Assembly: GCF_900240385.1 (NCBI RefSeq)
Contig: NZ_OEQH01000004.1
Coordinates: 248,001 to 312,000, forward strand
Direction of reading: 5' to 3'
DNA length: 64,000 bases
Origin: Clostridium minihomine
GTDB taxonomy: Bacteria > Bacillota > Clostridia > Oscillospirales > Acutalibacteraceae
Below are positions 5,141-36,877 of this stretch, one piece after another; the stretch's first letter is position 1, and each line of letters starts with the position of its first letter. Position numbers and translations under genes: made by a program. A model generated the notes under the pieces. That model saw only the letters and a program-made list of their open reading frames with translations, was not told the DNA's origin and did not search any database.

Positions 5141-5961
5141 CCGGAAAACTTTATGTGGTAGGAACTCCCATTGGAAATTTATCGGATTTTTCTCCCCGGG
5201 CAGCACAAACTTTAGAAGAAGCGGACTTTATCGCCGCAGAAGACACCCGGGTAACCATAAAACTGTTAAACCACTTGGGCATCAAAAAGCCCATGATCAG
5301 CTATTATGAGCACAATAAGCTGGAGCGCGGCGGCATCATCTGCCGTCGGATTTTAGACGGGGAAACCTGTGCGCTGGTATCCGACGCGGGAATGCCGGCT
5401 ATTTCTGATCCCGGCGAACTTCTGGTGGCGCAATGCGCCGAATTGGGCATTCCCACTTTGGTGGTGCCCGGCCCCAGCGCCGTCATCTCTGCTTTGGCAA
5501 TTTCGGGGCTTCCCACCGGCCGGTTTACCTTTGAAGGCTTTTTAAGCATGAATAAGCGCACTCGTCGGGAACATTTGGAACAGGTGGCCCGAGAAGAACG
5601 CACTATGATTTTCTATGAGGCTCCCCACAAGCTGGCCTCTACCCTTTCTGATATGCTGAACGCCTGGGGGGACCGCCGAATTGCATTAGTGCGCGAGCTG
5701 ACCAAAATTCACGAAGAAGTAATTCGCACTACTTTGGCAGAAGCCGCTGAAAAATACGCAAACGGCGGCGCCAAAGGAGAATTTGTTCTGGTTGTGGAAG
5801 GTGCCCCCATCGAACAAAAACAATCTTTTACATTAGAGGACGCCATCGCTTTGGCCCAAACATTTTTGTCCGAAGGCAATTCCGTTTCAGACGCAGCAAA
5901 GAAAGCTGCAAAAGAAAGTGGCTACCCAAAAGCCGAAATCTATAAAAAAATCTGCGAATAA
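5137..5961 (+). CDS. rsmI: 16S rRNA 2'-O-methyltransferase RsmI
   Basis: A 274-residue tetrapyrrole-methylase-fold enzyme. Visible family marks are GTPIGNLSD at 9-17, the EDTR segment near residue 36, SDAGMPAISDPG and GPSAVISALAISGLP. RsmI methylates the ribose of C1402 in 16S rRNA in the decoding centre. ATAAGGAGGGGC precedes the ATG, which overlaps the stop of the upstream methyltransferase gene, so the two are coupled. Confidence 0.95.
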   Translation: MTGKLYVVGTPIGNLSDFSPRAAQTLEEADFIAAEDTRVTIKLLNHLGIKKPMISYYEHNKLERGGIICRRILDGETCALVSDAGMPAISDPGELLVAQCAELGIPTLVVPGPSAVISALAISGLPTGRFTFEGFLSMNKRTRREHLEQVAREERTMIFYEAPHKLASTLSDMLNAWGDRRIALVRELTKIHEEVIRTTLAEAAEKYANGGAKGEFVLVVEGAPIEQKQSFTLEDAIALAQTFLSEGNSVSDAAKKAAKESGYPKAEIYKKICE

Positions 5962-31137: not shown

Positions 31138-32346
31138 CTAACCTTTTAAGAATTCTTCCATCAGCAAATGGCCAGTATTAATGCAAATTCCCGTATTTGC
31201 CGCAGATTCTTCCGAGAAGCACTCTACCCCGGGCTGTTCCTTGCTTTTTTGATAAATAAAATACGGAACCGGGTCATTGGTATGGGTGCGCAGTGCCAAA
31301 GGCGTGGGATGATCCGGCACCACCAAAATTCGGTAGTCATCGTATTGTTCCATGCCTTCCAACAGAAGTTTCAGAATCCGGCTGTCAATGTATTCGATGG
31401 ATTTGACTTTATTTTCGATTTCGTGGCGATGCCCGCACTCGTCGGGAGCCTCCACATGAATATAAACAAAGCCCTGCCCTTGCTCCAATTCTTGCAAAGC
31501 TGCCTGAGCTTTGCCCTCGAAATTAGTATCAATGTAACCGGTGGCTCCTTCCACAGAAACCACATTCATCCCGGAAAACTTTCCGATTCCCTTGAGCAAG
31601 TCCACAGCAGAAATCATCGAGCCTTTTACACCAAACTTCTGCTCAAAAGGAGACAGCTGGGCGCGAACACCTTCTCCCCACAGCCACATGCTGTTGGCCG
31701 GGCGCTGTCCGCGTTCCATCCTGGCCAAATTCACCGGATGATCTTTGAGCAGTTCATAGGATTTTACCATCATTGCGTAAAGCTTTGCCGCATTGGGGTG
31801 TGTCGGCACATGATCTTTGATGGGCTTTCCGGTAATATCGTGAGGTGGCGTCAGCGTGCCTATCTCCAAGGTTCCGTTGTCCCAAATCAGGCAATGGCGG
31901 TAGCTTACCCCACTGTATAACTTAAACTCTTCATTGTCCAGATGCTCGGCCAGATACTCCACCAGAATCTTTGCTTCCTCTGTTGAGATATCGTCGGCAC
32001 AGTAGTCTAAAATGGTTTTGTCGGCGTATTCCGGTTCATCCGACAGGGTAACCAGATTGCAGCGGAAAGATACATCCGTGGGCTTCATGTCAATGCCGAT
32101 ACTTCCCGCCTCTAAAGGAGAACGGCCGGTATAGCATTCTGACGGATCATATCCCAGAACCGACAGATTGGCCACGTCGCTGCCCGGCTTTAAATGATCC
32201 GCCACAGTTTTCACCAGCCCAACCCGGGACTTGCAAGCCAGAGCATCCATATTGGGTTTGTGGGCGGCCTGCATGGGGGTTTTCCCGCCCAGCTCCTCCA
32301 CCGGATAGTCCGCCATTCCATCGCACAACAGAACTACATATTTCAT
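31138..32346 (-). CDS. apgM: 2,3-bisphosphoglycerate-independent phosphoglycerate mutase, archaeal type
   Basis: A 402-residue alkaline-phosphatase-superfamily enzyme. MKYVVLLCDGMADYP gives the first metal Asp, the GSDVANLSVLGYDP segment supplies the active Ser-like region, and HVEAPDECGHRHE and VPDHPTPL carry later metal ligands. It interconverts 3- and 2-phosphoglycerate in glycolysis. ApgM is found in archaea and several Clostridia. It has its own promoter. Confidence 0.94.
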   Translation of the reverse strand: MKYVVLLCDGMADYPVEELGGKTPMQAAHKPNMDALACKSRVGLVKTVADHLKPGSDVANLSVLGYDPSECYTGRSPLEAGSIGIDMKPTDVSFRCNLVTLSDEPEYADKTILDYCADDISTEEAKILVEYLAEHLDNEEFKLYSGVSYRHCLIWDNGTLEIGTLTPPHDITGKPIKDHVPTHPNAAKLYAMMVKSYELLKDHPVNLARMERGQRPANSMWLWGEGVRAQLSPFEQKFGVKGSMISAVDLLKGIGKFSGMNVVSVEGATGYIDTNFEGKAQAALQELEQGQGFVYIHVEAPDECGHRHEIENKVKSIEYIDSRILKLLLEGMEQYDDYRILVVPDHPTPLALRTHTNDPVPYFIYQKSKEQPGVECFSEESAANTGICINTGHLLMEEFLKG

Positions 32347-32603: not shown

Positions 32604-32757
32604 ACAAAAAAAGCAGCTAAGATTTTTCTTAGCCGCTTTATTAATAAGATGATTATACAGACCTAGCCGTCCCGGCCGAATGCCGGTCCGGTATGCTTTC
32701 GCATGGCGCTAATTCCAATATATCGCGCAGACTTCGTTTGTCCGTCCTGTATAACTT
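32604..32757 (-). ncRNA. Small RNA gene, copy 1 (unrecognised family)
   Basis: Promoter on the minus strand: TTGACA (32792-32787), 17-base spacer, TATACT (32769-32764). The RNA of about 154 nt opens with TTATACAG, which pairs with CTGTATAA near its 3' side (32660-32653) to close the fold. Inside are GCGC...GCGC, ATGC-GAAA-GCAT and GGCC-GGGAC-GGCT stems. It ends in AAGCGGCTAAGA-AAAA-TCTTAGCTGCTT and TTTTT. Copy-specific changes here (GGCT, AGCTGC) keep G-U pairs. I know no family for it; the function is unknown. Confidence 0.75.
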
Positions 32758-32941
32758 GTTTATAGTATAACCCCAACTCTCCGATTTGTCAATAACCCAA
32801 CCTAATTTTTGCATATTATTAACAGAATTTTAACAAAAATCCTTCTGTTTGTGTTTTTGTACCGGCATACAGCATTTTTATAGAACGATGCTTCTGAAAA
32901 CTGTGGTGCAAGGTTGTAATCGCCAAATTAAAATAAATGAG

Positions 32942-33095
32942 ATCAAAAAAGCGGCTAAGATTTTTCTTAGCCGCTTTATTAATAAGATGATTATACAGAC
33001 CTGGCCGTCCCGGCCGAATACCGGTCCGGTATGCTTTCGCATGGCGCTAATTCCAATATATCGCGCAGACTTCGTTTGTCCGTCCTGTATAACTT
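32942..33095 (-). ncRNA. Small RNA gene, copy 2
   Basis: Same layout: TTGACA (33130-33125), 17-base spacer, TATACT (33107-33102), closing stem TTATACAG/CTGTATAA, GAAA tetraloop hairpin, and a fully paired GCGGCTAAG/CTTAGCCGC terminator. A C to T change in the middle (ACCGGACCGGT) is private to this copy. Confidence 0.75.
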
Positions 33096-33279
33096 GATTA
33101 TAGTATAACCCCAATTCTCCGATTTGTCAATAACCCAACCTGATTTTTGCATATTATTAACAGAATTTTAACAAAAATTCTTCTGTTTGTGTTTTTGTAC
33201 CGGCATACAGCATTTTTATAGAACGATGCTTCTGAAAACTGTGGTGCAAGGTTGTGATCGCCAAATTAAAATAAATGAG

Positions 33280-33433
33280 ATCAAAAAAGCGGCTAAGATT
33301 TTTCTTAGCCGCTTTATTAATAAGATGATTATACAGACCTGGCCATCCCGGCCGAATGCCGGTCCGGTATGCTTTTGCATGGCGCTAATTCCAATATATC
33401 GCGCAGACTTCGTTTGTCCGTCCTGTATAACTT
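33280..33433 (-). ncRNA. Small RNA gene, copy 3
   Basis: TTGACA (33468-33463), 17-base spacer, TATACT (33445-33440). The hairpin loop is AAAA rather than GAAA, and the GGCC stem loop reads GGGAT: both changes fall in loops, so the stems stay intact. The region upstream of its promoter no longer matches the repeat. Confidence 0.75.
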
Positions 33434-33506
33434 GTTTATAGTATAACTCTGATTTTCCGATTTGTCAATACCTTGATAGTAATTTTTTATATTATGAACA
33501 AAATTT

Positions 33507-35201
33507 TCAAATTCCCAACAATTTAGGCGTTGCCTCTTTCAGTGCTTCAATCACATTCAGGGCATCCTGCCGGGTTTTACCTTTGGCAGACAAATAGGCT
33601 TTCAGCTTCGGCTCTGTGCCGGAGGGCCGCACCATCAGCTTGCTGCCGTTTTCCAGCCGAAATTCCAACACATTAGATTTCGGCAAAGCAATCTGACTGA
33701 CAGCTTCTTCGTCATGCCGCTCGCTCAGCAAATAGTCGCTGTGCCCGGTCACCCGGATTCCCGCAATTTGCTGGGGCGTAGATTTACGCAGAGAATCCAT
33801 CATGGCAGACATTTTGTTCATGCCATCCTGCCCTTCAAACACAAAGTTCATCAGGTCATTTAGATAGTATCCGTGCTTTTGATACAAGTCTTCCATTGCA
33901 TCCACCAAAGTTTTGCCCTGACGCTTGTAATACAAAGCCATTTCACAAACCAGCATGCTGGCATTCACCGCGTCTTTATCCCGCACATAGCTGCCGGACA
34001 AATAGCCATAACTTTCTTCGTATCCAAAAATAAACTGATCTTCTCTGCCCTGCTCTTCTAACTCGGCCAGCTTGTCGCCAATAAATTTAAAGCCGGTCAG
34101 AACCTTAAACAGTTCAATTCCGTATTCTTTGGTAATCGCCTCATTCATATCGGTGCTGACTATGGTGCTGATCACGACCGGGTTCTTCGGCATAATGCCG
34201 TTTGCAACCCGCTGACGCGCCACATAATCCATCAGCAGAACGCCTACCTCGTTCCCGTTAAGAAGCACAAAATCCCCTTTATGCCGCACAGCGATGCCCA
34301 CCCGGTCGCAGTCCGGGTCGGTCGCCAAAAGCAGATCCGGCTGCACCTTTTCGCTCAGCTCCAGTCCCTTTTGCAGTGCTTCGCGGAATTCCGGGTTCGG
34401 ATAGGGGCAGGTGGGGAAATTCCCATCCGGCTCTGCCTGCTCAGGCACAATGGTTACATCCCGAATCCCGATGCTGTCCAGAATACGGGTAACGCACATT
34501 CGTCCCGCACCGTTCAGCGGTGTATAAACCAGCTTCAGACCACTGTCGATATCTTTTAACAGGCTTTGCTTTTTCACATCCGCCAAATAAGCATCGGTGA
34601 CTTCGTCTGCAATGGTGCAAATCAGGCCTGCTTTCACTCCGGCATCATAATCCATGTGCTTGACATCGTTAAAGATATCAAGGCTATTGATCTCTGCCAA
34701 CACCTGATCGGCCATTTCCATCGCAATTTGGCAGCCGTCGCTGCCATAGGCTTTATATCCGTTGTATTTGGCCGGGTTGTGGCTGGCCGTCACATTGATT
34801 CCGGCGTCACAATGCAGATATCGCACCGCATAGGAAAGCGCCGGTGTGGGCATCAGCTGTGGATACAAGTGGGCAGTAATGCCATTGGCCGCCAAAACCC
34901 CGGCCGCTTCTTTCGCAAACCGGTTGGAATTGATGCGGCTGTCATGGGCAATGGCAACCGAACCGCCTTTTCTCTGCTTGTTAAGATAATTGGCCAAGCC
35001 TTGGGTTGCCTTGCGAATGGTGTAAATATTCATACGGTTGGTGCCTGCGCCTAACACGCCGCGCAAACCGCCCGTTCCAAATTCCAAATTACGATAAAAC
35101 CTGTCGTTAATCTCCTCCGGTTTTCCGGCAATGTCTTCCAGCTCCTGGGTCAGCTTCGGGTCTTCCAACGGGGTATTTCGCCATCTTTCATATTCTGTCA
35201 T
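33507..35201 (-). CDS. pgcA: Phosphoglucomutase/phosphomannomutase
   Basis: A 564-residue alpha-D-phosphohexomutase. GTGGLRGVLGAG is near 43, the phosphoserine loop TASHNP near 144, the metal loop DPDCDR near 300 and the sugar loop GYEESYGY near 390; RPSGTEPK near the end binds phosphate. It interconverts glucose-1- and glucose-6-phosphate for envelope and glycogen synthesis. The start at 35201 (MTEYERW) fits family N-termini; the ribosome site is weak. Confidence 0.95.
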   Translation of the reverse strand: MTEYERWRNTPLEDPKLTQELEDIAGKPEEINDRFYRNLEFGTGGLRGVLGAGTNRMNIYTIRKATQGLANYLNKQRKGGSVAIAHDSRINSNRFAKEAAGVLAANGITAHLYPQLMPTPALSYAVRYLHCDAGINVTASHNPAKYNGYKAYGSDGCQIAMEMADQVLAEINSLDIFNDVKHMDYDAGVKAGLICTIADEVTDAYLADVKKQSLLKDIDSGLKLVYTPLNGAGRMCVTRILDSIGIRDVTIVPEQAEPDGNFPTCPYPNPEFREALQKGLELSEKVQPDLLLATDPDCDRVGIAVRHKGDFVLLNGNEVGVLLMDYVARQRVANGIMPKNPVVISTIVSTDMNEAITKEYGIELFKVLTGFKFIGDKLAELEEQGREDQFIFGYEESYGYLSGSYVRDKDAVNASMLVCEMALYYKRQGKTLVDAMEDLYQKHGYYLNDLMNFVFEGQDGMNKMSAMMDSLRKSTPQQIAGIRVTGHSDYLLSERHDEEAVSQIALPKSNVLEFRLENGSKLMVRPSGTEPKLKAYLSAKGKTRQDALNVIEALKEATPKLLGI

Positions 35202-35256
35202 ACCTGATACTTTCCTTTCCTCCCGCCCGATCAAAAGACGTTATTTTTGTATCATT

Positions 35257-36217: not shown

Positions 36218-36877
36218 ATGGATGACATCACCAGCAAAATCAACGATCTGCTCAGCGATCCCGCGGCAATGCAACAACTGAACAGTCTGGCCGCTTCGTT
36301 GGGACTGGGAAACGCCGCACCCGACACCGCTCCGTCGCCGGGTCAACCAAATAACACACAAAACAATCCCCTGCAAGGGCTGGATATGAACATGCTCAGT
36401 CAGCTTTTGGGGGGACTTGGCGGCTCCGGTGACGGAAACAACATACAACCCCCTGATGCCTCATCCGGCGCCGGCGGGCTGGATACTGCAAAGCTCGCCT
36501 CTCTTTTGTCGGGGCTCGGTGGTTCCGGCGGGGGCGGCGGACTTGGTGCTCTTTCCGGCCTGCTGGGCGGCGGAGGCGGCGGGCTTGGTGCTCTTTCCGG
36601 CCTGCTGGGCGGTGGGGGCGGCGGACTTGGCGCCCTATCGGGCCTGCTGGGCGGCGGAAGCGGCGGGGGCAGCGGAATAGACGGTGACGCCTTAAAGACT
36701 GTCACAAAAATCATGCCGCTGCTATCTACTTTCCGGCAGGAAGACAATAATACCCGCCTGCTTCATGCCCTTCGGCCGCTTTTGGGGCCGGACCGGCAAA
36801 AAAAGTTAGATGAATCCGTCAAGATGCTTTCCATGCTGCGTCTTCTGCCCCTGTTAAAAGAGCAGGGAATCTTGTAA
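36218..36877 (+). CDS. Glycine-rich repeat protein of unknown function (cluster gene 2)
   Basis: A 219-residue protein with three domains: an N-terminal helix (MDDITSKINDLLSDPAAMQQ), a central glycine-rich part with three copies of a 14-residue unit (LGALSGLLGGGGGG), and a C-terminal helical part (LLHALRPLLGPDRQKKLDES). There is no signal peptide. The ribosome site is weak (GGGTGTGAGGGT). Such a layout suggests a self-assembling or structural protein, perhaps in the spore or envelope, but that is speculation. Confidence 0.65.
   Translation: MDDITSKINDLLSDPAAMQQLNSLAASLGLGNAAPDTAPSPGQPNNTQNNPLQGLDMNMLSQLLGGLGGSGDGNNIQPPDASSGAGGLDTAKLASLLSGLGGSGGGGGLGALSGLLGGGGGGLGALSGLLGGGGGGLGALSGLLGGGSGGGSGIDGDALKTVTKIMPLLSTFRQEDNNTRLLHALRPLLGPDRQKKLDESVKMLSMLRLLPLLKEQGIL
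36533..36658 (+). repeat. Three 42-bp tandem repeats inside the Gly-rich gene
   Basis: CTTGG starts at 36542, 36584 and 36626, an exact 42-base period coding LGALSGLLGGGGGG. Copies 1 and 2 are nearly identical; copy 3 carries synonymous changes, so copy number may vary among strains. Confidence 0.88.

Follow-up and report, generated by a model that had tools for sequence, protein, structure and literature searches.

A predicted structured small RNA encoded in tandem in Clostridium minihomine, conserved within its family and matching no Rfam family

The window analysed here, a 64,000-nt stretch of the Clostridium minihomine genome, contains three tandem genes for a small RNA that, judging from comparison of its relatives, is conserved both in shape and in the letters of its loops and matches no Rfam family. 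The preliminary description of this DNA, made from its letters alone, had proposed an unrecognised structured small RNA, and this proposal is supported by covariation, by the presence of a promoter and a terminator at every complete locus and by the lack of an Rfam match. A well-supported RNA class is thereby added to anaerobic Clostridia, in genomes without detectable Hfq, and its function is directly testable in cultured hosts (F. sporosphaeroides, F. jeddahensis and Caproiciproducens).

Organization of the three genes

The genes occupy positions 32604-33470 of the window and lie on the minus strand; each is composed of a TTGACA-N17-TATACT promoter, a 104-nt core and an intrinsic terminator (Table 1). 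The promoters and terminators read from the letters in the preliminary description were all found, the three promoters matching 11 of the 12 consensus bases and the three terminators having 13-bp stems on the minus strand; promoter-like sites numbered 12 in the scan (3.0 in shuffles) and terminator-like sites five (1.4 in shuffles). The predicted RNA, from an inferred start at about 32757 to the end of the terminator in copy 1, measures about 154 nt, in agreement with the length first proposed.

The 338-nt spacing of the cores, described beforehand as a tandem repeat of three units, is real, but the repeat is composed of two full units and a partial third, which has only the RNA gene and its promoter in common with the others; the DNA upstream of copy 3 is the end of pgm, without the repeat spacer. 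Over the 338 positions, units 1 and 2 show 10 differences from each other and unit 3 about 110 from both, about 100 of them in the spacer. The duplication that separates copies 1 and 2 is recent (2/104 differences in the core and 3/146 in the spacer), so these copies carry no usable signal of selection, and the differences between copies do not by themselves show excess constraint. The earlier argument that these differences reveal selection on the shape of the RNA is therefore weak, and one of the changes on which it relied, GGCC/GGCT, had been taken as preserving pairing in a stem, whereas the comparative structure places it in an unpaired linker. It had also been suggested that tandem copies serve either dose or different targets; the P2 and P3 loops are identical among the three window copies, which favours dose over divergent targets and makes dose the more likely explanation.

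Table 1. Features of the RNA genes and their neighbours in the window
Feature	Position	Strand	Basis
RNA core, copy 1 (P1 closing stem, hairpins P2-P5)	32652..32755	-	match to models R1/R2 and covariation
P2 hairpin, copy 1: GGAC-AAACGAA-GUCU	32729..32743	-	stem covaries
P3 hairpin, copy 1: GCGC-GAUAUAUUGGAAUUA-GCGC, nearly invariant element of the family	32706..32728	-	36-sequence comparison
P5 hairpin, copy 1: sequence free, pairing kept	32667..32691	-	8/8 pairs changed on both sides, 96.5% paired
Promoter, copy 1, TTGACA-N17-TATACT	32764..32792	-	promoter scan; same arrangement at 34/34 full-flank loci
Intrinsic terminator, copy 1 (13-bp stem, T-run)	32604..32639	-	terminator scan and family flank comparison
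RNA core, copy 2	32990..33093	-	model match
Promoter, copy 2	33102..33130	-	promoter scan
Terminator, copy 2	32942..32977	-	terminator scan and family flank comparison
RNA core, copy 3	33328..33431	-	model match
Promoter, copy 3	33440..33468	-	promoter scan
Terminator, copy 3	33280..33315	-	terminator scan and family flank comparison
pgm (phosphoglucomutase/phosphomannomutase), usual upstream neighbour	33507..35234	-	PF02878/02879/02880/00408; conserved neighbour
Cofactor-independent phosphoglycerate mutase, next annotated gene downstream	31138..32346	-	PF10143, PF01676

Fold and sequence conservation

The fold is under selection. It consists of P1 (9 bp plus 2 bp past a bulge), which closes the structure, and of P2 (4 bp), P3 (4 bp), P4 (4 bp) and P5 (8 bp) inside it, and in a test on 36 distinct core sequences and 31 base pairs, 93.9% of the cells were paired. 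Changes on both sides that preserve pairing were found in 22 of the 31 pairs and in 122 cells. Shuffles gave 33.1 such cells, and not one of 500 reached the values observed. Control structures slid from their true place gave 17-36 such cells, and although the alignment was fitted to the structure of the model, which biases it towards pairing, the effect relative to these controls is far larger than the bias. The closing stem GUUAUACAG/CUGUAUAAU and the inner hairpins claimed beforehand fold as described (core z-scores of -3.4, -2.5 and -2.1). Mutual information between columns revealed no other clear pair beyond these helices; the best candidate, columns 82 and 107, falls inside the internal loop of P5. 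A reading of the NUG in P4 as a start codon was rejected, because the frames that follow vary in length and sequence and pairing explains the column.

The sequence of P5 has changed completely across the family with its pairing maintained, and the stem of P2 appears as GGAC/GUCC, GAAC/GUUC, GGGC/GCCC or AGAC/GUCU, its loop (L2) retaining A, C and G at three positions. In P3, 12 of the 15 loop positions (L3, GAUAUAUUNGAAUNA; C54 in all) and six of the eight stem positions are invariant among the 36 sequences, a conservation that is in part ascertainment, as the exact-pattern scan required part of this loop, although the model search, which has no such requirement, supplied most of the 36 sequences. 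The two free positions of L3, columns 43 and 48, are scattered within the otherwise invariant loop, and one locus, L012 (GAAATATT), deviates from the pattern of the P3 loop. Stems that vary freely beside loops that are frozen point to a specific partner, which could be fished out.

Distribution and gene neighbourhood

The first relatives came from a DNA search in the genus and family, and covariance model R1 was built from ten sequences (the three window copies and seven relatives). R1 matched in 28 of the 398 genomes of the GTDB family, Acutalibacteraceae; G026 and G239, with weak matches that a second model (R2) did not recover, were excluded, which leaves the RNA in 26 genomes of at least nine genera. 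The search of clostridial genomes proposed in the preliminary description has thus recovered the same RNA in its own family, and none was found outside this family among the 295, 391 and 299 genomes sampled at the order, class and phylum level, respectively. Phage, plasmid and viral collections (including viral contigs) gave no match. Among named genomes, an exact-pattern scan located it in Faecalispora (C. sporosphaeroides, F. jeddahensis), Caproiciproducens, Anaeromassilibacillus, Candidatus Gallacutalibacter and further Oscillospiraceae/Clostridia.

F. sporosphaeroides and F. jeddahensis contain two copies each. Orthologous copies of these two sister species have core identities of 97 and 91%, against 70 and 84% in the downstream DNA, and the paralogues within each species have 90 and 92% against 66 and 74%; since the core is better kept than the neighbouring DNA, both copies appear to be retained in each species. 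Tandem copies are also present in UBA5408 (L051), at 5478-5574 and 5844-5939. Between these two intact copies lies a broken remnant (the end of P4, P5 and P1' only), which is evidence for repeated gain and loss of copies.

The core is always accompanied by its promoter and terminator, the three forming one gene. At all 34 loci with full flanks, the promoter ends 2-9 nt upstream of P1 and a terminator, a hairpin with a T-run, follows 0-13 nt downstream; transcription is therefore predicted to start almost at P1. The best promoter match per locus covers 10-12 of the 12 consensus bases (TTGACA being exact in 33), and among shuffled flanks 0-3 of 100 reached the promoter score and 0-1 of 60 that of the terminator. 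Many terminators of the family share an AAGG-AUUU-CCUU-like upper stem across genera despite differing flanks. The terminator is perhaps a part of the functional RNA.

The gene upstream is pgm in most distinct loci, and in the window the promoter of copy 3 starts about 39 nt past the pgm stop, the scan giving no terminator between them. This arrangement would suit a single unit formed by the 3' end of pgm and the RNA, with read-through from pgm also stopping at the terminator of copy 3 and the RNA acting back on sugar-phosphate metabolism. Such a unit is improbable, since many of the loci are not at pgm and the RNA has a promoter of its own in every case. Near pgm, the window also contains an ORF (36218-36877, plus strand) whose protein product would contain repeated GGGGLGALSGLL units rich in glycine, and small proteins resembling it are found near pgm in other genera too (neighbour cluster c8).

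The phosphoglycerate mutase gene also lies downstream of the RNA in two sister species, but downstream genes vary among loci and some face the RNA, such as the malic enzyme gene in L050, which disfavours a general role in cis; the RNA would thus most likely act in trans. An orphan aptamer or cis riboswitch that controls the gene behind it by way of the terminator beside P1 is a quite unlikely alternative. The arrangement of hairpins around invariant loops followed immediately by a terminator resembles a transcription-attenuating riboswitch, and six loci (some of them duplicate entries of one genome) have a nagA-like amidohydrolase gene downstream in the same direction (L049, 3089-4234; L018; L024; L033; L060; L064). 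On the other hand, two of the three copies in the window are followed just by another copy, the next gene elsewhere varies or faces the RNA, and P1 and the terminator form separate helices in the folds of the three window copies. The nagA-like loci lie away from pgm; this neighbourhood perhaps reflects a second ancestral site, or else synteny by chance.

Known RNA classes and the possible partner

The covariance search against Rfam suggested at the outset gave no match: with Rfam 15, nothing in the window reached the gathering score, and among the sub-threshold matches at E values up to 10 the best was trpB, which rests mainly on the terminator hairpin. Among 16 diverse relatives, nothing lay over the core at E values up to 1, one of them having a sub-threshold match on the opposite strand at the 3' edge. 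Literature searches with the loop sequence (as DNA or RNA), for F. sporosphaeroides small RNA and for Acutalibacteraceae riboswitch gave nothing. A screen of the human microbiome reported thousands of unnamed structured-RNA candidates outside Rfam (PMC8040213); this motif may be among them, the main text of that paper mentioning neither phosphoglucomutase nor F. sporosphaeroides.

A highly diverged form of a known housekeeping RNA (6S, SRP RNA, tmRNA, tRNA, raiA/ModT or Y RNA), for which a strong promoter and a compact closed fold would be typical, is very improbable given these searches and what was found for individual classes. 6S RNA stands alone, acts in trans and is closed by a terminal stem, and the RNA described here has a similar closing stem, stands alone too and most likely also acts in trans; unlike 6S, which forms one long bulged hairpin, it has four inner hairpins. 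Identity with 6S, named in the preliminary description as an outcome that would speak against its proposal, is rejected, because these genomes encode 6S separately: RF00013 matches elsewhere in G000 (contig C3), and likewise in six relatives, passing the cut-off in all seven genomes tested. ARAGORN gave no tRNA or tmRNA gene in the window or the 16 loci, and the Y RNA partner Ro60/Rsr (TROVE) is absent from 28 of 28 genomes. The raiA motif RNA (ModT) has 215-260 nt and occurs in over 2,500 species belonging to two phyla; it is abundant and stable, acts in trans and is suspected to bind protein (PMC11706538). Both ModT and the RNA of the window are structured, stand alone and occur in Clostridia under a sigma-A promoter. 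The RNA of the window differs in that its core has 104 nt, it occurs in one family only and it does not match the Rfam raiA model.

It has the features of a structured stand-alone sRNA, namely its own promoter and terminator and a fold under selection. No Hfq was detected in any of 40 genomes, whereas five controls gave a match, and an Hfq-dependent sRNA was therefore rejected, as was a CsrA/RsmE sponge, since GGA is present in the P3 loop of only 14 of the 36 sequences, the rest having UGA or AGA. The undetected Hfq counts against an antisense role too, but Hfq-free antisense RNAs exist, so that this RNA may still act by base pairing: LhrC of Listeria, of 111-114 nt and in five copies, needs Hfq neither for stability nor for target binding (PMC4132741). 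An Hfq-independent regulator whose exposed P2 and P3 loops pair with mRNAs, blocking or exposing ribosome binding sites as in LhrC, would fit the size, the own promoter and terminator and the several near-identical copies, and it is a plausible, if doubtful, reading. Unlike LhrC, with its exposed CU-rich target sites, the RNA described here has a fixed fold and fixed loops without conserved sites of this kind; the UCCC-type motif of RNAs from low-GC bacteria (PMC4132741) is not conserved, CCC being found in or near L2 or L3 in only two of 36 sequences, and an LhrC-type RNA was rejected on this count. An invariant L3 with scattered free positions is expected for a three-dimensional motif and awkward for an antisense seed.

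The reading that we favour, with moderate confidence, is that of a stable housekeeping-style RNA that binds a protein through its P2 and P3 loops. Each unit would be a complete gene, with a near-consensus housekeeping promoter and its own terminator, for a trans-acting structured RNA of about 150 nt that accumulates as a stable and abundant transcript; the two loops would form a fixed three-dimensional surface for a protein (less likely a tRNA or a small ligand), whose activity or availability would change upon binding, and extra tandem copies would raise the dose. No protein family was found to co-occur with the RNA, and the co-occurrence of Spo0A, present in 38 of the 40 genomes, is uninformative.

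Within the P3 loop, the letters UUNGA suit the pentanucleotide turn of T-loops and may form a T-loop-like turn there. RNase P, T-boxes and the ribosomal L1 stalk use interdigitated T-loops to recognise the elbow of tRNA (PMC4810234). A more specific, and unlikely, version would be a family-specific housekeeping RNA, with no known counterpart elsewhere, whose P2 and P3 loops form a tRNA-elbow-like or T-loop surface for a core partner such as tRNA, the ribosome or the polymerase.
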